A stretch of 53,455 nt of DNA, taken from assembly GCA_900319465.1 (NCBI GenBank), contig ONOL01000011.1, positions 1 through 53,455 on the forward strand, read 5' to 3'. Every line of letters starts with the position of its first letter. The first letter of the stretch is position 1. Under the pieces are notes generated by a model. The model saw nothing but the letters and a program-made list of their open reading frames with translations. It made no database searches and was not told the DNA's origin. Below are positions 3,231-51,653 of the stretch, piece after piece. The DNA is from an uncultured Eubacteriales bacterium. Its GTDB lineage: Bacteria; Bacillota; Clostridia; Oscillospirales; Oscillospiraceae. Made by a program: the position numbers and the translations under genes.

Positions 3231-4424
3231 ATGGATATCTTCACCAAATGCGAGAAATTTACCGCCGCGGACGAGCTGCGGCAGCAGGATCTCTTCCCCT
3301 ACTTCCGGGAGCTTCAGTCCCGGCAGGACACCGAGGTCATCATGGAGGGGCAGCGGCGTATCATGCTCGGCTCCAACAACTATCTGGGGCTGACCACCGT
3401 GCCGGAGATCGTGAACGCCGCCAAAGCCGCGCTTGACGAATACGGCACCGGCTGCTCCGGCTCCCGGCTGCTCAACGGCACGCTGATCCTGCATCAGCAG
3501 TTTGAGAAAGAGATGGCCGCCTTCCTCGGCAAGGACGACGTGGTCACCTTTTCCACCGGCTTCCAGTCCAACCTCGGCATTATCAGCGCCATCGTCGGCC
3601 GCGGGGACTACGTGATCTGCGACAAGGAGAACCACGCTTCGATCTACGACGGCTGCAAGCTCAGCTACGGCAAGATGCTGCGCTATAACCACGCCGACAT
3701 GGACGGGCTTGAGGCGCAGCTGAAAAAGGTGCCGGAGAGCGCCGGCGCGCTGATCGTCACGGACGGCGTGTTCTCGATGGGCGGCGATATCGCGAAGCTG
3801 CCCGAGATCGTGGCGCTTGCCAAACGCTACGGGGCGCGCGTCATGGTGGACGACGCCCACGCGCTCGGCGTGATCGGCCGCGGCGGCCGCGGTACCGCGA
3901 GCTACTTCGGGCTGGAGGACGAGGTGGACATCTACATGGGCACCTTCTCCAAGTCCCTCGCCTCCCTGGGCGGTTACATGGCGGCCAGCGCGAAGGTGGC
4001 CGATTACGTGCGCTGCAATTCGCGGCCGTACATCTTCTCCGCCTCCGTCCCGCCCGCCTGCATCGCGGTGGCGACCGCTTCCCTGCGTTATCTGATTGCC
4101 CATCCCGAGCGGGTCGACCGGCTGCAGGCCATCGCCCAGTACATGCGCGAGCAGCTGCTGGCCCGGGGCGTGAGCATCCGCGTGGCCAAGACGCCCATCA
4201 TCCCCATCTACACCTATGATATGCTGCGCACGCTGCAGGTACAGAAGGAGCTGTACGAGCGCGGGGTGTACGTCAACGCCTCCCTGCCCCCCGCCACGGC
4301 GCCCAACGAGTGCCTGCTCCGCTGCAGCCTGATGGCGACGCACACGGAGGCCCAGGTGGACGAGGCGGTGTCGATCATTGCGGACGTGCTGTCGCGTCAC
4401 CGGCTGGAGCCGAAAGAAGCGTAA
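3231..4424 (+). CDS. Alpha-oxoamine synthase (KBL/BioF/serine palmitoyltransferase family)
   Basis: This 397-residue fold-type I PLP enzyme condenses an amino acid with an acyl-CoA and releases CO2 and CoA. Visible motifs include LGSNNYLGL near the N-terminus, GTGCSGSRLLNG, the PLP-stacking region DKENHASIYDG, DDAHALG with the cofactor aspartate, and GTFSKSLASLGG holding the Schiff-base lysine (about K241). Length fits the family. The sequence alone does not separate 2-amino-3-ketobutyrate CoA ligase, BioF and serine palmitoyltransferase-like enzymes. No biotin or threonine genes are adjacent, so a lipid or other role stays open. The ribosome site is weak (GAGG, 8 bp upstream). Confidence 0.88.
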   Translation: MDIFTKCEKFTAADELRQQDLFPYFRELQSRQDTEVIMEGQRRIMLGSNNYLGLTTVPEIVNAAKAALDEYGTGCSGSRLLNGTLILHQQFEKEMAAFLGKDDVVTFSTGFQSNLGIISAIVGRGDYVICDKENHASIYDGCKLSYGKMLRYNHADMDGLEAQLKKVPESAGALIVTDGVFSMGGDIAKLPEIVALAKRYGARVMVDDAHALGVIGRGGRGTASYFGLEDEVDIYMGTFSKSLASLGGYMAASAKVADYVRCNSRPYIFSASVPPACIAVATASLRYLIAHPERVDRLQAIAQYMREQLLARGVSIRVAKTPIIPIYTYDMLRTLQVQKELYERGVYVNASLPPATAPNECLLRCSLMATHTEAQVDEAVSIIADVLSRHRLEPKEA

Positions 4425-4430
4425 ACAAGG

Positions 4431-4473
4431 ACCGGAGCTGTGAAGCAAGCCTTTCTTCACAGCTCCGGTTTTT
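4431..4473. terminator. Bidirectional terminator between convergent genes
   Basis: ACCGGAGCTGTGAAG (4431-4445) and its exact complement (4455-4469) form a 15-bp stem followed by TTTTTC on the plus strand. The minus-strand racemase gene ends inside it (stop at 4457), so it can serve both converging transcripts. Confidence 0.85.
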
Positions 4474-5266
4474 CAATTTGATATTCGCCCGTCAGGCGTG
4501 TCCTCCCCCACAGAAGGGTCTGGCCGCCGATGGGATCGCTCTCCACGCGCAGGCAGCCGCCCGGCTCCCGCAGCGCGAGGCTGACCGGCGCGCCGCTTTT
4601 CGCGGCGAGCGCCATGCCCGCGGCGGCGCTTCCGCTGGCGCAGGCCTTCTCCCAGAATACCGTCCCGCTGCCGGGGATGTACACCAGCGGGGTAAGCGCG
4701 TCTCCGTCGAGGAACATGAGCCCCAGGCCCTGCGCCAGCAGCGTTTCACAGAAGGCGCGGACGGCCCGCTCCGCCTCGCCCCGGTTGCCGAGAAGCGAGA
4801 AAAAGGGAGATTCCGGCGTGATGACGAGATGGGAGATCCCCTGCATCCGGACCGTCGGAAGCGTCCCCCGCAGCGTGCCGAAGGCGTAGGGAAGCTCCCG
4901 GACGCTGAGCGCCGCGGGCATACGGACCCCGGCGGAAAAGCCGCCGTCCTCCTCCCGCCGCAGGCGCACCTCGACCGGCCCCGCCGCTCCGGAGACGCGA
5001 AGGAACACCGCCGGCGTGCCGCGTCCGGTGCGAAGCCGGAAGAGCGCGGCGGCGCTCATGCTCGCGTTGCCGCAGAACTCGCCCCCCGCCATGCGCAGCA
5101 CGGGCCCGTCTTCCGAAAAACGCACAAAGCCCACCTGCTCCACCTCGGGATGCCTTCGCATCAGCAGCGCGCCGACGGCTGGCTGCTCGCAGGCCGGCGT
5201 CTCGCTCTCCACGAGCGCGGTGATATTCCCCGTGGGGTCAAAGATGCTGTATCGAAGCTTCCCCAT
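4457..5266 (-). CDS. DapF-fold amino acid racemase, CntK (histidine racemase)-like
   Basis: This 269-residue cofactor-independent racemase has two catalytic cysteines of the DapF fold: GGEFCGNASMS (about C65) and ACASGSAAAG (about C209). The N-terminal FDPTGNITALVES and the segment LVYIPGSGTVFWEKACASGS resemble staphylococcal CntK, the L-to-D histidine racemase of staphylopine synthesis, more than true DapF, which has GNGxRC and ACGTGA. The start lies 3 bp after the ABC ATPase stop, with no strong ribosome site of its own, so it is probably translationally coupled. The context suggests a D-amino acid linked to the imported substrate. Histidine specificity is an inference; no staphylopine synthase is nearby. 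Confidence 0.8.
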   Translation of the reverse strand: MGKLRYSIFDPTGNITALVESETPACEQPAVGALLMRRHPEVEQVGFVRFSEDGPVLRMAGGEFCGNASMSAAALFRLRTGRGTPAVFLRVSGAAGPVEVRLRREEDGGFSAGVRMPAALSVRELPYAFGTLRGTLPTVRMQGISHLVITPESPFFSLLGNRGEAERAVRAFCETLLAQGLGLMFLDGDALTPLVYIPGSGTVFWEKACASGSAAAGMALAAKSGAPVSLALREPGGCLRVESDPIGGQTLLWGRTRLTGEYQIEKPEL

Positions 5267-5269
5267 CGT

Positions 5270-6043
5270 TCAGCGCTCGAACACCCGCAGAAACTGCTTC
5301 GTTCTCTCCTCCCTGGGGTTTTCGAAGACCTCGACCGGGTCGCCCTGCTCCACGATCACGCCGCCGGCCATGAAGATGACGCGGTTGCTGACCGCCTTGG
5401 CAAAGGGCATCTCGTGCGTGACGACCACCATGGTCATCTTCTCCTCGGCAAGCTGCCGGATGACCTTGAGCACCTCGCCCGTCAGCTCCGGATCGAGCGC
5501 CGAGGTGGGCTCGTCAAAGTAGAGGATCTCCGGCTTCATCGCGAGCGCGCGGGCTATGGCCACGCGCTGCTGCTGGCCGCCGGAGAGCTGGTAGGGATAG
5601 GCCTTTTCCTTCCCCTCCAGACCCATCTTCCGCAAAAGGGAATTGGCCCGTTCGTATACCTCGTCCCTGTCCTCCCCGTGCAGGATCGGAGCCTCGGAGA
5701 TGTTCCTGAGCACCGAATAGTGGGGGAAGAGCTGGAAATTCTGGAATACCAGCCCAAAACGCGTGCGGAAGCGGTTCAGCTCCGCCCGCGGGGCGTAGAC
5801 GCCGTCCTTCACGGCGTAATTCCCGTCGTAGAGGATATCCCCGCCGTCGGCCCGCTCCAGGAAGGACGCGCAGCGCAGCAGCGTGGATTTGCCCGAGCCG
5901 GAGGGCCCGATAATGGAGATAACGTTCCCCCGCTCGACGGAGAGGGAGATGTCTGTCAGCACGGGCAGCTCGCCGAAGGCCTTCTGCAGAGAGCGGATGC
6001 TGAGGATGCTGGGCGTCGCGCCGTTCCTCTTTTCGTCTGCCAT
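5270..6043 (-). CDS. Polar amino acid ABC transporter ATP-binding protein
   Basis: This is a 257-residue ATPase of the GlnQ/HisP class. Walker A is GPSGSGKST, the Q-loop is in [10 protein letters not shown], the signature is LSGGQQQR, Walker B is [12 protein letters not shown], and the H-loop is VVVTHEM. It energises uptake together with the permease and binding protein upstream. The frame also has a GTG start at 6058 overlapping the permease stop, but ATG 6043 is preceded by GAGGGGG at good spacing and is preferred. Confidence 0.93.
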
Positions 6044-7809: not shown

Positions 7810-7839
7810 AAAGTCAGTGCAGAGAACGGGAGGACGCAT

Positions 7840-18535: not shown

Positions 18536-19027
18536 TCATCCCTCCACGCGGATACGTTTGACCAGGATCCCCGCCAGAAGCCCGATCACGATGCCGGCGA
18601 GCGTGCCGCTGAGCACCAGGAAGGGCAGGTAGTAGCGGATCACGTCGGTCTGCAGCAGCAGGCAGGCCATCGCGATCTGCCCGACGTTGTGCAGCACGCC
18701 GCCCGCCACGCTCACCGCGATCTCCGAAAACAGCCCCGTCTTTTTCAGCGCGGCCATGCTGATCAGGCTCAGCACCGCGCCCGCCAGGCTGTAAAAGAGG
18801 CTGGCGAAGCTGCCGAACAGGATCGAGACCAGAAAGACGCGGATCAGCGAGATCAGCGCGGCCTCCTTCCAGCCCAGCTGATAGAGCACGAACACCACCG
18901 CGATGTTGGCCAGCCCCATCTTCACGCCGGGGATGGACACGAACGCGGGGATCTGGCTCTCCACGAAGGACAGGATCATGGCCAGCGCGATCGCAAGCGC
19001 CATGACCGTCACTTTCTTTGTCCTCAT
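18536..19027 (-). CDS. Gx transporter family membrane protein (heptaprenyl diphosphate synthase component I-like)
   Basis: This 163-residue protein has five or six hydrophobic segments and typical sequences IPGVKMGLANIAVV and GGVLHNVGQI. Databases often call the family heptaprenyl diphosphate synthase component I, but it is an ECF-S-like membrane protein. It is commonly paired with a NusG domain II protein, as seen here, and similar pairs (EetB/EetA) occur in flavin-based extracellular electron transfer loci. That functional link is inferred. ATG 19027 with upstream GAGGGCGG is preferred. Confidence 0.82.
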   Translation of the reverse strand: MRTKKVTVMALAIALAMILSFVESQIPAFVSIPGVKMGLANIAVVFVLYQLGWKEAALISLIRVFLVSILFGSFASLFYSLAGAVLSLISMAALKKTGLFSEIAVSVAGGVLHNVGQIAMACLLLQTDVIRYYLPFLVLSGTLAGIVIGLLAGILVKRIRVEG

Positions 19028-19037
19028 GCCGCCGCCC

Positions 19038-19421
19038 TCATCCGAAGATGTCCACGCCGCCGTCATCTCCGCCTTCCACGGTGACGATCAGCTGGTTGGG
19101 CAGGCAGACGATCAACTGACCGTCCAGATGGATCTTACCCATATGCACACAGATTTTATCCGGGCAGGTAGCCTCGGACAGATACGCGAAGCCATCCTCG
19201 ATCACGAGCGTGTTGGTGCCGCCGTTGAGCGGAAAGACGCCGTTCCGGTCCAGAGGGTAGCGGCCGGCCTCCTCGCCGTTGATGATCACGACGGCGCAGG
19301 CGCCCTCTTCCCTGCCGGCGCTGAAAGCGAAGTACAGCACCAGCGCCAGAAGCAGGAGGCCGAGGATCAGCGCCGCGTCCAGCAGCGTTCTCTTTTTCTT
19401 CGACATTTCTTTCTTTCCCAT
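19038..19421 (-). CDS. Membrane-anchored NusG domain II protein
   Basis: This 127-residue protein has one N-terminal transmembrane anchor (about residues 12-34) and an extracytoplasmic NusG domain II-like beta domain. The segment EATCPDKICVHMGKI with CPDKIC and a further cysteine in IVCLPNQL is characteristic. It is the first gene of the NusG-II/Gx/PrsW operon, with a good promoter at 19491-19519. The second ATG (MSKKKRT, 5 codons in) is an alternative start. In other Clostridia this family sits with Gx transporters and FMN-binding or ApbE proteins. Confidence 0.83.
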   Translation of the reverse strand: MGKKEMSKKKRTLLDAALILGLLLLALVLYFAFSAGREEGACAVVIINGEEAGRYPLDRNGVFPLNGGTNTLVIEDGFAYLSEATCPDKICVHMGKIHLDGQLIVCLPNQLIVTVEGGDDGGVDIFG

Positions 19422-47233: not shown

Positions 47234-48022
47234 TCAGGCGTAGGAGTGCAGGCCGGGCAGGAGGGTGTTGACGCCGGCAAAGGTGAACAGCACCACCGGG
47301 ATCGCGACGATCAGATACCAGGCGAGGAAGGCCGCGTCCTTTTTCCGGCGCAGGCGCAGATGCAGATACACGGCGTAAATGATCCAGGTGATCAGCGCCC
47401 AGGTTTCCTTCGGATCCCAGGTCCAGAAAGCCGACCAGGCCTGCTCGGCCCAGATCGCGCCCGAGAGGATCACGACTGTGAGGAACAGAAAGCCAAAGCC
47501 GACAAGGCGGTAGCTCAGATAGTCCATCTGCTGCAGCTTCAATTCGTCCGCCGTGCCTTGCTTTTTCATGCGGAGATAGCGCAAGCTGACGCACCCGGCC
47601 AGCACGAAGGCCGAATAGGCGAACACCGCCGAGCCGATGTGGATGCCGAACCAGGCGCTGCGCAGGGCGGGCATCAGTTCGGTGATCTCGCGCGGCTGCA
47701 GGGCGGCATAGCTCAATATCAGCAGCGCCGCGGGCATTGCGGCGACGCTCAGCCACACTGCTTTGACCTTGACGCGCAGCACGATCAGCAGCAGCGCGAT
47801 GCCCCAGGCAAAAGCGCAGGCAAACTCAAACTGGTTCGAGAGCGGCAGCCGCCGGGCGATCACGCCGCGCAGTACGAGAAAGAGCGTATGCAGCGCAAAG
47901 GCGGCGACAAAGACCGGCCAGGAAAGCCCGGCGAGCTTTTCTTTTTTGAAGGCCGCGGCGGAAAACTGCAGGACCACCGCGACAAAATACAGGCCGAGAA
48001 CGACGAAAAACAGTGCGTTCAT
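47234..48022 (-). CDS. ccsA: System II cytochrome c biogenesis protein CcsA/ResC
   Basis: This 262-residue protein has eight hydrophobic segments and the heme-handling WWD motif (WSAFWTWDPKETWALITW), with flanking histidines (FGIHIGSAVF and near the C-terminus). With ResB it exports heme and attaches it to CXXCH motifs outside the membrane. The start overlaps the resB stop (ATGA). Its presence is needed only for c-type cytochromes, matching the multiheme gene in this operon. Confidence 0.93.
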   Translation of the reverse strand: MNALFFVVLGLYFVAVVLQFSAAAFKKEKLAGLSWPVFVAAFALHTLFLVLRGVIARRLPLSNQFEFACAFAWGIALLLIVLRVKVKAVWLSVAAMPAALLILSYAALQPREITELMPALRSAWFGIHIGSAVFAYSAFVLAGCVSLRYLRMKKQGTADELKLQQMDYLSYRLVGFGFLFLTVVILSGAIWAEQAWSAFWTWDPKETWALITWIIYAVYLHLRLRRKKDAAFLAWYLIVAIPVVLFTFAGVNTLLPGLHSYA

Positions 48023-49275
48023 GCGTAAGCCTCCCTTTCACAGTCTTTCAGTAGGGTCTTCAGCTCGAGGCGTGTGCCCTCGCTCTTCGCGCCGCCGACG
48101 GCATAGCCCTCGCCGTCGACGCGCACCAGCACCGGCGGCAGGAAGAACAGCAGCGTCAGCCCCAGGAGCATCAGCACGAAGCCGACGACCAGCAGCGCGT
48201 TGACCGCGGTCGGGGTGATCTTGATGCGCAGGCCGGGGTAATTGACCGGCTCGTTGAAGGTGAAGCGGAGCGTGCCGACCTCGACCGTGTCTCCGGGGAC
48301 GAGAAAGCGCAGCGTCTGCTCTCCGTTTTCGGCGAGCTGGACGTGGTAGATCGGCCTCGGATAGCCGCCGCCCGCATTGGACACGGGCATCCGCTCACCC
48401 GAAGCGGTGACGATATAATCCGGGTACAGCGCCACATACCAGAGCCCGTTAACGTTATCCAACGAGAGAAAGGACAGTTCGGCGAGCAGGAAGACGTCAG
48501 AGCCGTCGTTTTCCAGGTTCGTCACAGTGACGGAGCCCGCGGTGCCGTAGCTCTGCTGGTAGACCTTGTAGGAGCCGAAGCTCAGCGGGTGGTTGACGCT
48601 GATCTCACCGCTTTTGCTGCGGCCGTCCGGCAGCGTAACCGTCAGTGCGCTCGTATAATCCAGCCGCCCGCTCGCGTCGGTCACCCGGAAGTCACTGACG
48701 GCAAAGCGCGCCGTGCCGCCGTTTTTCGCCGGGAGCACGACGCTCTCGCCGGGCATGCAGTCCAGATCGACGACCTGCGGCAGATAGAGTGCCGCCGCCC
48801 CGACGAGGATCGTCAGCAGGATCGCCAGATGTGTCAGAAAGCTGCCGAAGCGGCCATAGAGCCGCTTGTGCCAGACCCTCGCCCCGCCGCAGTCCGTCAT
48901 CCGGCAGCCGGTGCTCTGCAGATGCTGCTCCAGTTTTGTCAGGCCCTCCGGTGTCAGCTGAACGAGGGTCTTCATCCGCGCACAGCCTTCGACCAACGTC
49001 TGCGGCCCGCAAAAGACCGCCAAGGCGCGCAACAGCGAGCAGAGTGTCAGATTCAGGCATAGAAGCGAAAGCAGCGCAAGAAAATACCAACTTTTGAACA
49101 CCCGATTAAGCCGCAGCGCGAGCAGCAGGGTGTGCCAAGCCGGATAGGCCTCGGCGTACCAGGCGGCCGCGCGCTCCTGCGGGATTACGGAGCCGACGAC
49201 CGACAGTGCGGCGATCAGGATCAGCAGCACGATGCCGAAGCGCATCGAGCGCAGGAAATTCAGCAGTTTTTTCAT
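48019..49275 (-). CDS. resB: System II cytochrome c biogenesis protein ResB
   Basis: This is a 418-residue ResB/Ccs1 protein. Three transmembrane segments lie near the N-terminus (MRFGIVLLILIAALSVVGSVIPQ is typical), followed by a large extracytoplasmic domain (about 170-360; VFLLAELSF, GGYPRPIYHVQL) and a C-terminal membrane segment (VGFVLMLLGLTLLFFLPP). Partner of CcsA; AGGTGATCGT precedes the ATG right after an intercistronic hairpin. Confidence 0.93.
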   Translation of the reverse strand: MKKLLNFLRSMRFGIVLLILIAALSVVGSVIPQERAAAWYAEAYPAWHTLLLALRLNRVFKSWYFLALLSLLCLNLTLCSLLRALAVFCGPQTLVEGCARMKTLVQLTPEGLTKLEQHLQSTGCRMTDCGGARVWHKRLYGRFGSFLTHLAILLTILVGAAALYLPQVVDLDCMPGESVVLPAKNGGTARFAVSDFRVTDASGRLDYTSALTVTLPDGRSKSGEISVNHPLSFGSYKVYQQSYGTAGSVTVTNLENDGSDVFLLAELSFLSLDNVNGLWYVALYPDYIVTASGERMPVSNAGGGYPRPIYHVQLAENGEQTLRFLVPGDTVEVGTLRFTFNEPVNYPGLRIKITPTAVNALLVVGFVLMLLGLTLLFFLPPVLVRVDGEGYAVGGAKSEGTRLELKTLLKDCEREAYA

Positions 49276-49333: not shown

Positions 49334-50968
49334 TCAGCGCTCGAACATGCCCAGGGCCTTGTTGCACAGCTCCGCAGCCTTGTCCAGACAGTAGTCCGTC
49401 AGCTCGGGGTTGTGCACGCCCTCGGCGTTCTCGACAAACACGAAGTCCCAATAGAACTGCGCGTCGCGGGCGAGGGAGCGGATCTCCTCCAGCTTAGCCT
49501 CGTCCAGCTCGTTTTCCTCCACCGCCTTTGCCAGACGCTCGGTCAGGAACTCCAGCTCGTAGCCGATGGTGTAGGTCTTGGCCTCGATACGCGCCTGCTC
49601 GTCGCGAACCTCCGCGGTCAGATCCTCGTGGCACTTGGCGCAGGTTCCCTCCAGCAGCGTTGGATTATCGAGCGGACTTCTCAGGCTGTGGCTGACGAAC
49701 ACGGTGCCGTCCTCGGCTTCGGCCTTGCCCATGTGGCAGTCGGCACAGGTGAAGTCGTTGCGGTGCGGGCTGCCCGCGCTGAGGAAGGTCTCCAGCTCGG
49801 GATGCTGCACCTTGATCTGGCGCACGCCGGTGCGGGGATTGACATAGTCGGCAAAGGGCTGCCCGTCCGGGAAGTTCGAGCCGTCGTTGAAGAAGGCGAG
49901 GATCTCGTCCGGGTGCATGGTGGCCAGGCTGCTGTGCGGCAGGGTGGTCGCGCCGCCGTTGCCGGGATCGAAGAAGTATTCGTTGTGGCACTGGCCGCAT
50001 GAGAGGGTCTCGGCGTCGATCAGCTCAAAATCCTCGCCCACGCCGTCGATCAGATAGGCATGGGTCACGGTGAAGGTGCCGGGCTGATTGGCGTGGCAGG
50101 TGTAGCAGCTCACGGGCTCGGTGAAGACCGTGGCCAGCTCCATGAAAGAGCCGCCGTAGACCTCGACGCCCTGCTCGTTGACCATGTTGGTAAACTGCGG
50201 GGTCTTGCAGGTCCAGCAGCTCGCCTTGGAGTTTTCGCCGGTGCGTTTGGTTTCGACGACGTCCGTCAGCGTATACTGGTGGGAGCGGGCGGCCTTGTAG
50301 TCCTTCGAGAAGCCGTAGGGCTCGTACAGGGTCTTGAGCATCGGGTAGTCGACGAGGTAGTCGGTCACCTCGCTGTTTTCCCCGTCCGCAAGCCAGCTTG
50401 CATAGATATAGGGGTACTCCTCGGACCAGTCCTTCGCCAGCGTCACCGTGACGCCGGACTTGGTCTGCACCTTGTCGGCGACGGTCTCGCAGTAAATAAA
50501 GGTACCGCCGAACACGGCGGGCTGGATGCCGCCCTCCTCGAGTGCGTTGATGATGGCGCTCTTGATGCCGTTGGAGCTGATGGTCGCGCCGGAGACCGCG
50601 TCGACCTTCAGGCTTTGCGCTTGGAAGATGCGGGCGGGCAGCTGCTTGACGGCCTCGGTGCCGATGCCATCGGTCTCCTTGTGGTCGCCGATCTTGATCT
50701 GATAGATCTTCTCCCCATCGGTCACGACAGTCACGGCAATGTCGCCATTGCGCCCGGGGGCGGTGCCGAGAAGGGTAAGCGCGCCTTCGGGGACCTCGCT
50801 GTCCTTCACGCCGGCGCGTGCGGGGATCTGCGCGAGGATGATGCTGACCAGCGCGACGACGACAAGGAAAACGCCGCAGAGGATACCGACCAGATCGGCC
50901 CTGGCCTCGCGCCGCACCTTTTTATCCGCGCTTTTCAGCTCGCTGGAGAATTGGCTCCATCTTTTCAT
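49334..50968 (-). CDS. nrfA: Membrane-anchored FMN-binding domain fused to a pentaheme NrfA-type nitrite reductase
   Basis: This 544-residue fusion has a cytoplasmic N-terminus, one transmembrane anchor (about 26-48) and an extracytoplasmic FMN-binding domain (about 60-145) with the flavinylation motif DAVSGATISS, Thr129 being the likely FMN-phosphodiester site. A cytochrome c nitrite reductase-like part follows. Hemes: CWTCK (251-255, the NrfA active-site Lys type), CYTCH (288), CGQCH (324), CADCH (408) and CAKCH (443). VQHPELETF and SHQYTLTDV also fit NrfA. No NrfH partner gene is present, so the FMN domain may feed electrons directly. Followed by resB-ccsA. Nitrite-to-ammonia is the presumed reaction; the flavin route is inferred. 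Confidence 0.9.
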   Translation of the reverse strand: MKRWSQFSSELKSADKKVRREARADLVGILCGVFLVVVALVSIILAQIPARAGVKDSEVPEGALTLLGTAPGRNGDIAVTVVTDGEKIYQIKIGDHKETDGIGTEAVKQLPARIFQAQSLKVDAVSGATISSNGIKSAIINALEEGGIQPAVFGGTFIYCETVADKVQTKSGVTVTLAKDWSEEYPYIYASWLADGENSEVTDYLVDYPMLKTLYEPYGFSKDYKAARSHQYTLTDVVETKRTGENSKASCWTCKTPQFTNMVNEQGVEVYGGSFMELATVFTEPVSCYTCHANQPGTFTVTHAYLIDGVGEDFELIDAETLSCGQCHNEYFFDPGNGGATTLPHSSLATMHPDEILAFFNDGSNFPDGQPFADYVNPRTGVRQIKVQHPELETFLSAGSPHRNDFTCADCHMGKAEAEDGTVFVSHSLRSPLDNPTLLEGTCAKCHEDLTAEVRDEQARIEAKTYTIGYELEFLTERLAKAVEENELDEAKLEEIRSLARDAQFYWDFVFVENAEGVHNPELTDYCLDKAAELCNKALGMFER

Positions 50969-51023: not shown

Positions 51024-51051
51024 AGTATACCATATAATCAGGATTTTTCAA
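51024..51051 (-). promoter_or_regulatory. Promoter of the nrfA-resB-ccsA operon
   Basis: On the minus strand TTGAAA (51046-51051) and TATACT (51024-51029) are 16 bp apart, about 55 bp before the start codon, which has CGGAGGGAC upstream. Confidence 0.65.
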
Positions 51052-51232: not shown

Positions 51233-51317
51233 ATTTATCCCATGAGCGAGACAAAATCTCACTCATGGGATAAATTTCTCCTTGACAAACCTCTTCTGGT
51301 AGACAAAAGAGGTTTCT
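51233..51317. repeat. Flanking direct repeat, copy B (two hairpins)
   Basis: ATTTATCCCATGAG (51233-51246) and CTCATGGGATAAAT (51262-51275) form a 14-bp stem. TTCTCCTTGACAAACCTCT, CTGGTAGACAAA and a second stem AAACCTCTT/AAGAGGTTT (to 51317) follow. It repeats the unit at 47059-47130. Within 51069-51480 no protein gene is supported. Confidence 0.75.
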
Positions 51318-51329
51318 TTGATGTCTGTG

Positions 51330-51377
51330 TTGCACCAAACGGTGTCCAGACAAGGGTATTTGCACCAAAAGGTGTCT
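51330..51377. repeat. Two tandem palindromic motifs 30 bp apart
   Basis: TTGCACCAAACGGTGTCC (51330-51347) and TTGCACCAAAAGGTGTCT (51360-51377) are near-identical. Each contains CACC/GGTG around an AAAC or AAAA centre. Spacing is exactly 30 bp. They may be the ends of a lost insertion sequence or protein-binding sites. Confidence 0.55.
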
Positions 51378-51479
51378 AATTATGTAAACCGAATTGCTTG
51401 GTAGGTAGTGAACTATGTTTACGCCGTTACCACAGCCATACACTCGTGCTATCCGGACAACAAACGTATTGCCAGTTGC

Positions 51480-51653
51480 AGTACCGAAGATCATCAAATG
51501 TATATGGCCGAGAATGCCCACGAAGCCATTATTAGCCGGGAACAGTTTGCCGCTGTCCAGGCCGAGAAGGCACGGCGCAGCAATGTCACTCGGGATGATG
51601 CAGGGAGTGCCAAACGAAAAGCAACACGATATAGTTCTCGATCTGTTGAATAG
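51480..51653 (+). pseudogene. Serine recombinase fragment
   Basis: The plus strand encodes MAENAHEAIISREQFAAVQA and EKARRSNVTRDDAGSAKRKA followed by TRYSS, the middle of a large serine recombinase (the recombinase/zinc-ribbon linker region). The catalytic resolvase domain and the C-terminus are absent. It marks an excised or decayed mobile element. Confidence 0.65.

Follow-up and report, generated by a model that had tools for sequence, protein, structure and literature searches.

The ammonia-forming nitrite reductase NrfA is taught as an enzyme fed by quinol through a dedicated cytochrome partner. Solved NrfAs (PF02335; PDB 1gu6, 2j7a, 6v0a) have five heme motifs, the first CXXCK, and the catalytic Arg/Lys/Tyr/His set, with NrfH or NrfB as partner, and the Desulfovibrio NrfHA complex (PDB 2j7a) provides a membrane-bound electron entry in its tetraheme NapC/NrfH subunit. 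Flavins hold a comparable position on other enzymes. In the FMN_bind-FAD_binding_2 proteins Listeria fumarate reductase and Shewanella urocanate reductase, FMN_bind links the membrane to an extracytosolic reductase, and in fumarate reductases FMN_bind occupies the position of a cytochrome domain (PMC8238504, in the parts available to us). The same parts describe NapH-like clusters with the nitrite reductase NirS, and a multi-flavinylated Christensenellales RnfG with a multi-heme cytochrome domain, which lies inside RNF clusters and whose heme domain is not named NrfA. The flavin-for-cytochrome swap is already known, and no published account of it on NrfA came to light: the word NrfA has no uses in PMC8238504, 'nitrite' has none in the main text of PMC11334425 as available to us, and the literature searched, mostly at abstract level, yielded no description of an FMN-NrfA fusion, which may sit unremarked in supplementary tables.

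The window, by which we mean the whole analysed stretch of 53,455 nucleotides from an uncultured Eubacteriales bacterium (contig ONOL01000011.1), encodes a protein that shares with NrfA the fold, the heme motifs and the catalytic residues, but has its own anchor and FMN domain in place of NrfH or NrfB. It shares with the FMN_bind-FAD_binding_2 reductases the link from membrane to reductase, but its head is a multiheme NrfA rather than an FAD domain, with a proposed flavin-to-heme relay; with the Christensenellales RnfG it shares the presence of FMN_bind and multiheme domains in one extracytosolic protein. The features of the locus are:

49334..50968, minus strand: FMN_bind-NrfA fusion, 544 aa, a single ORF identified from Pfam domains, alignment and an AlphaFold2 model; basic tail at residues 1-24, transmembrane anchor at about 25-47, FMN_bind at 72-144, pentaheme NrfA head at 180-538
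50537..50755, minus strand: FMN_bind domain of the fusion, with the flavinylation motif DAVSGAT at residues 123-129
49355..50431, minus strand: catalytic domain of NrfA (cytochrome c552); CWTCK is the first of its five heme motifs
48019..49275, minus strand: ResB, System II cytochrome c biogenesis, 418 aa, starting 58 nt past the end of nrfA
47234..48022, minus strand: CcsB/CcsA heme transport-ligation protein, 262 aa, overlapping resB by 4 nt (TIGR03144, 219 bits, cut-off 187.6)
51024..51051, minus strand: candidate extended -10 promoter for the operon (TTGAAA-16-TATACT, with TG), weak because one such site was found against 1.1 expected by chance

The fusion gene opens with ATG behind a Shine-Dalgarno-like GGAGGG. 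Its product matches FMN_bind with E 2.9e-15 (57.1 bits, cut-off 22) and Cytochrom_C552 (PF02335) with E 1.3e-69 (235.7 bits, cut-off 24.1) in Pfam; the flavinylation motif reads D123-A-V-S-G-A-T129-I-S-S and the heme motifs run CWTCK, CYTCH, CGQCH, CADCH, CAKCH. Residues 1-24 are strongly basic, and 27-45 form the most hydrophobic 19-residue stretch near the N-terminus. The AlphaFold2 model, built from a 45-row alignment, has a mean pLDDT of 84.0 and a pTM of 0.79; in Foldseek, E. coli NrfA ranks first among its PDB matches (1gu6_A, E 2.7e-20) and the solved FMN_bind domain 8p2b_A also matches (81 columns, rmsd 1.1). The solved NrfAs listed by Foldseek share 20-28% identity with the protein. 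This confirms, on the minus strand, the reading of an earlier note made from the letters alone, that an anchor, DAVSGATISS and five heme motifs with CXXCK first occupy one polypeptide. The protein falls below two NCBIfam models of ammonia-forming nitrite reductase, one equivalog and one exception (190.2 bits against 595 and 161.1 against 692.5), cut-offs that we take to suit close relatives of the proteobacterial enzymes and thus to limit the name and not the fold. A Pfam search found no PF00890 (FAD_binding_2) head in the fusion. A mis-fused RnfG is rejected by the rnfG model TIGR01947, on which the protein scores 23.3 bits against a cut-off of 102.

The fusion is not an assembly artefact or chance, as 44 of 84 relative rows align across the join, beginning no later than residue 30 and reaching at least residue 500; the identical join across many independent records rejects an assembly chimera. 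The nearest relative (L004) is 93% identical and points to Oscillospiraceae as the family of the source. Co-occurrence of FMN_bind and cytochrome c552 in single proteins, for which the earlier note proposed a search, is seen in a real family with 55 fused rows. A scan of species genomes gave 156 relatives, and the best 80 of these, which were kept, are all clostridial by title: 49 belong to Oscillospiraceae or Ruminococcaceae and one to Lachnospiraceae, and 61 of the 80 come from ruminant or deer gut as read from the titles.

Within the operon the order is nrfA-resB-ccsB with the fusion gene first, and no NrfH or NrfB is encoded, as had been noted. System II machinery of the ResB/CcsB type attaches heme outside the cell. 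Of 86 loci, 74 have a ResB-cluster gene close to nrfA and 70 a CcsB-cluster gene, many loci ending at contig ends and the clusters being named from one or a few family-searched members. No neighbour within 4.5 kb of nrfA in the 86 loci carries three or more heme motifs, except a second NrfA. On the 5' side of the operon the minus strand of the window holds a 20-pair hairpin with a T-tail and a near-repeat, GACACCxTTTGGTGCAA (51233-51275 and 51340-51400), and a plus-strand frame at 51408-51653 resembles, by reading, a recombinase fragment; together these are possibly the remnant of a mobile element. Elsewhere, positions 4-1038 hold five minus-strand tRNA genes and a lysine riboswitch (867-1038) before a 454-aa gene.

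On balance we favour the view that the protein is a membrane-tethered ammonia-forming nitrite reductase whose built-in flavin electron entry does the job of NrfH and is fed, most probably, by Rnf without quinone. The basic N-terminus would lie in the cytoplasm, with a single transmembrane helix as anchor; outside the cell an FMN attached by ApbE to Thr129 would take up electrons at the membrane and hand them on to the chain of hemes in the NrfA head, nitrite being reduced to ammonium at the Lys-ligated heme and the hemes having presumably been attached by ResB/CcsB. We infer that the electrons flow from FMN to the hemes, and that they most probably come from NADH or ferredoxin through Rnf, with its own FMN subunits RnfD/RnfG, so that neither quinone nor NrfH would take part. 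The anchor-FMN module appears to be interchangeable between reductase heads.

The flavin site itself is strictly conserved. The column of Thr129 reads T in 55 of 55 fused rows, window protein included, a count that excludes one protein (L066) aligned over the FMN region but lacking the motif. Flavinylation targets are written as [S/T]GA[S/T]-like in the available parts of PMC8238504 and PMC11334425; as the motif fits this target, Thr129 is the expected FMN site and covalent FMN is predicted for the fusion. ApbE, whose absence from the same genome would have counted against the earlier note, is present there in two genes, one of them next to tatC, which exceeds its cut-off, and to a tatA/B-like gene that falls short of its model cut-offs. 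It is found in 73 of the 80 genomes; the seven genomes where it was not found, five of them with a fused NrfA (L018, L029, L034, L048, L050), are MAGs and may be incomplete. In four loci (L073, L075, L079, L081) the order is apbE-tatA-tatC-nrfA, as judged by clusters, with ApbE confirmed on L079.

A dedicated NrfH, the other finding that would have spoken against the earlier note, did not emerge: PF03264 (NapC/NrfH) gives no match at E up to 10 in the source genome, and none of 51 genomes, this one included, has a match over the cut-off. In a second set one of 29 genomes does, inside the FMN-NrfA frame itself (L058); sub-threshold matches at E up to 1 occur in 9 of the 51 and in 12 further of the 29, the best at 4.5e-4 (L082 genome). 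A canonical NrfH elsewhere in the genome is rejected by these searches, whose single match over the cut-off lies in an FMN-NrfA frame, with the proviso that an NrfH gene could have been missed in a source genome that is 88.5% complete.

UbiA-family prenyltransferases are used for menaquinone or ubiquinone synthesis. The source genome has no UbiA match, and of the 80 genomes only 10 have one over the cut-off, with control genomes positive in 14 of 14. The source genome also differs from Desulfovibrio, with its NrfHA, in both these respects, the tetraheme partner and UbiA. It does have one rnfCDGEAB operon, in which RnfC, D, E, A and B exceed their model cut-offs and the sixth gene (RnfG) is an FMN_bind protein. 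The earlier note had proposed to look for a membrane flavin/quinone oxidoreductase; since UbiA-family prenyltransferases are mostly missing, this membrane Rnf is the likelier donor. RnfC exceeds its cut-off in 73 of the 80 genomes, a count that does not discriminate because Rnf may be common in such bacteria anyway, and the source genome has rnf, apbE and nrfA on separate contigs. Closer linkage is seen in three relatives. In L069 the rnf genes (RnfC, RnfD with an FMN_bind domain, two genes of the Rnf-membrane-subunit cluster and an RnfB-like gene) end with rnfB at 7829 and nrfA starts at 7836; L071 has the same order, by cluster, up to a contig cut; and L078 is collinear as rnfC-D-G-E-A-B-tatA-tatC-nrfA-resB-ccsA, RnfG being assigned by motif only and the Tat names partly by reading. 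In all three the NrfA downstream of rnf is plain, not fused. The L069 RnfD (4237-5772) is a 511-aa protein in which an RnfD domain and an FMN_bind domain occur together.

The donor to this enzyme and flavin relay could be something other than the canonical Rnf: a second complex of Rnf type whose RnfG is enlarged, a different membrane oxidoreductase or, in the UbiA-bearing minority, quinol. We regard this as unlikely, if a live alternative. An apbE-rnfC2-D2-G2-E2-A2-like cluster was read in three genomes (G004, G013, G001; ApbE and RnfC named by models, the FMN domain of the G004 RnfG2 by search, the rest by their N-termini), and the UbiA-positive genomes include that of L080, which has no rnfC over the cut-off and encodes an NrfA with five FMN domains. 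The source genome, with one rnfC over the cut-off and its lack of a UbiA match, speaks against such a donor there, and the second Rnf-like cluster is absent from the window although the two genes that trail it in relatives are present (18536-19421). These two minus-strand genes, one resembling heptaprenyl diphosphate synthase component I (a Pfam name confirmed on the L080 homologue only), follow the apbE-rnf2-like cluster in G004, G013 and G001; in the window a LysM-looking protein lies upstream of them instead.

The module of anchor and FMN domain that Rnf is proposed to feed also occurs on other proteins. In the source genome itself, contig C60 (G000; L088 8135-8679) encodes a membrane anchor-FMN_bind-FAD_binding_2 protein, cut by the contig end, whose module is 39.5% identical to residues 25-153 of the fusion; the genome's own RnfG is more distant (28% over 85 residues). 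An anchor-FMN alignment search of 24 genomes found the module on FAD_binding_2 heads in L166, L169, L173 and L174, on a three-FMN protein in L168, which in L179 is directly followed by an FAD-binding-looking frame, and in L170 on a chain that has at least five FMN domains. The genomes of L168, L169 and L170 have a plain NrfA. The proteins with FAD_binding_2 heads are fumarate-reductase-like enzymes, and as they carry the same module as NrfA, several reductases probably plug into one membrane donor. A DxxGxxCG motif lies in the anchor helix (window 50825-50896, residues about 25-48). Ahead of the first heme, the pattern [DN]xx[GA]xxC[GAC] occurs in 54 of the 68 fused NrfAs, in 8 of the 45 plain ones and in none of the five in the outgroup; it was also seen by eye in six of eight module-bearing proteins that are not NrfAs. 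The Cys within the membrane and the GxxxG-like spacing suggest that the helix may dimerise or dock on a common membrane partner.

NrfA occurs rarely across the class sample (5 of 391 genomes, the source genome included) and more often across the family sample (31 of 400), in which 29 readable loci, our own among them, divide into 14 fused and 15 plain; L148 and the family match G852 were left unclassed. The 'plain' label is unsafe for L051 and L072, which are cut by contig starts, and the N-termini of L042 and L043 are uncertain. The four other class genomes with NrfA supply five plain NrfAs that serve as outgroup (L115-L119). Upstream of one, L115, lies a short NrfH-like frame (PF03264, 29.7 bits, cut-off 24.1); the other four have no multiheme or NrfH neighbour in the roughly 4 kb read and show, by reading, lipoprotein-like signals at their start and a ResB-looking neighbour. 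In a quick tree of 117 NrfA heads (106 different, duplicate genomes included, L072 left out), rooted on the outgroup, the plain heads are basal and the FMN label changes seven times, one change resting on the contig-cut L051; long branches meet in L115 and L143, and also in L144 and L080. A group of 73 rows (support 82) joins most single-FMN forms with 13 plain ones, and a plain clade (L055, L056, L059, L062, L064, L065, L068) nests among fused proteins with its anchor motif retained and the FMN domain absent. The FMN domain thus appears to have been repeatedly gained or lost on NrfA. It has also been multiplied: two FMN motifs occur in L048, L052, L054, L057, L058 and L067, and L080 (6222-9473) encodes a 1083-aa protein with five FMN_bind domains and NrfA. 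In L052, L054, L057, L058 and L067 nrfA is in tandem, a two-FMN NrfA being followed by a plain lipoprotein-like one, and such pairs may form a heterodimeric NrfA.

The claim that FMN replaces NrfH as electron entry therefore survives only in part. ApbE is present and NrfH was not found, but a one-step flavin-for-NrfH swap is too simple, because the clostridial L116-L119 have neither FMN nor, within about 4 kb, NrfH; nor is the flavin obligatory, being repeatedly gained or lost and absent from 15 of the 29 family loci. With those loci, the nested clade that keeps its anchor indicates that the flavin is dispensable in some lineages. The domain might then be a mere membrane-presenting spacer or a side branch, the donor docking on the NrfA head and electrons entering the hemes directly, as in the plain relatives; this would accord with the nested clade, with the plain lipoprotein-like and secreted-looking forms (their N-termini judged by reading) and with the outgroup NrfAs, plain in five of five. 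We nevertheless think it improbable, as an inert spacer needs neither an invariant flavinylation Thr nor multiplication up to five domains.

The active site of the NrfA head appears functional. Four residues, R242, the CXXCK lysine K255, Y331 and H389, show no variation across 85 of 85 rows, comprising the window protein and 84 rows from 79 of the 80 loci (L082 was omitted from the head alignment, as its NrfA is split over two frames and a single frame holds too few motifs). The putative Ca-site residues E330, K386 and Q388 are present in the window protein and in 76 of the 85 rows, the other nine reading D, M, N; the roles of both sets we take from E. coli and Wolinella NrfA. As the catalytic residues are intact, nitrite is likely the substrate of the fusion, and would be so in vivo. 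The link drawn in the earlier note between flavin-based electron transfer and nitrite reduction gains from this, but must be qualified in that the flavin module is common to the FMN-FAD fumarate-reductase-like enzymes. NrfA enzymes also reduce NO and hydroxylamine. It is doubtful that their detoxification, rather than nitrite respiration, is the enzyme's main task: an hcp cluster adjoins the two-FMN NrfA in three loci (L057, L058, L067; Prismane family confirmed on L057) and 15 loci have a cluster of Crp/Fnr-like regulators no more than 4.5 kb away (families confirmed on L057 and L012), but the nitrite active-site residues are all intact, and the two functions are not mutually exclusive.

With the flavin-armed NrfA, a flavin-for-cytochrome swap already known from fumarate-reductase-like enzymes reaches a multiheme terminal reductase, and NrfAs with no, one, two or five flavins form a natural series for studies of flavin-to-heme transfer. 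Its occurrence where the quinone prenyltransferase is mostly absent makes quinone-free nitrite ammonification testable in rumen and gut Firmicutes, a setting in which nitrite competes with methanogenesis for electrons. The wider proposal, in which Rnf would pass electrons from ferredoxin or NADH to a plug-in anchored flavin serving interchangeable heads, NrfA among them, with no NrfH, quinone or periplasm, is tentative, and we put it at a shade under an even chance. If true, Gram-positive gut fermenters would dispose of electrons onto nitrite through a quinone-free chain with the energetics of Rnf.
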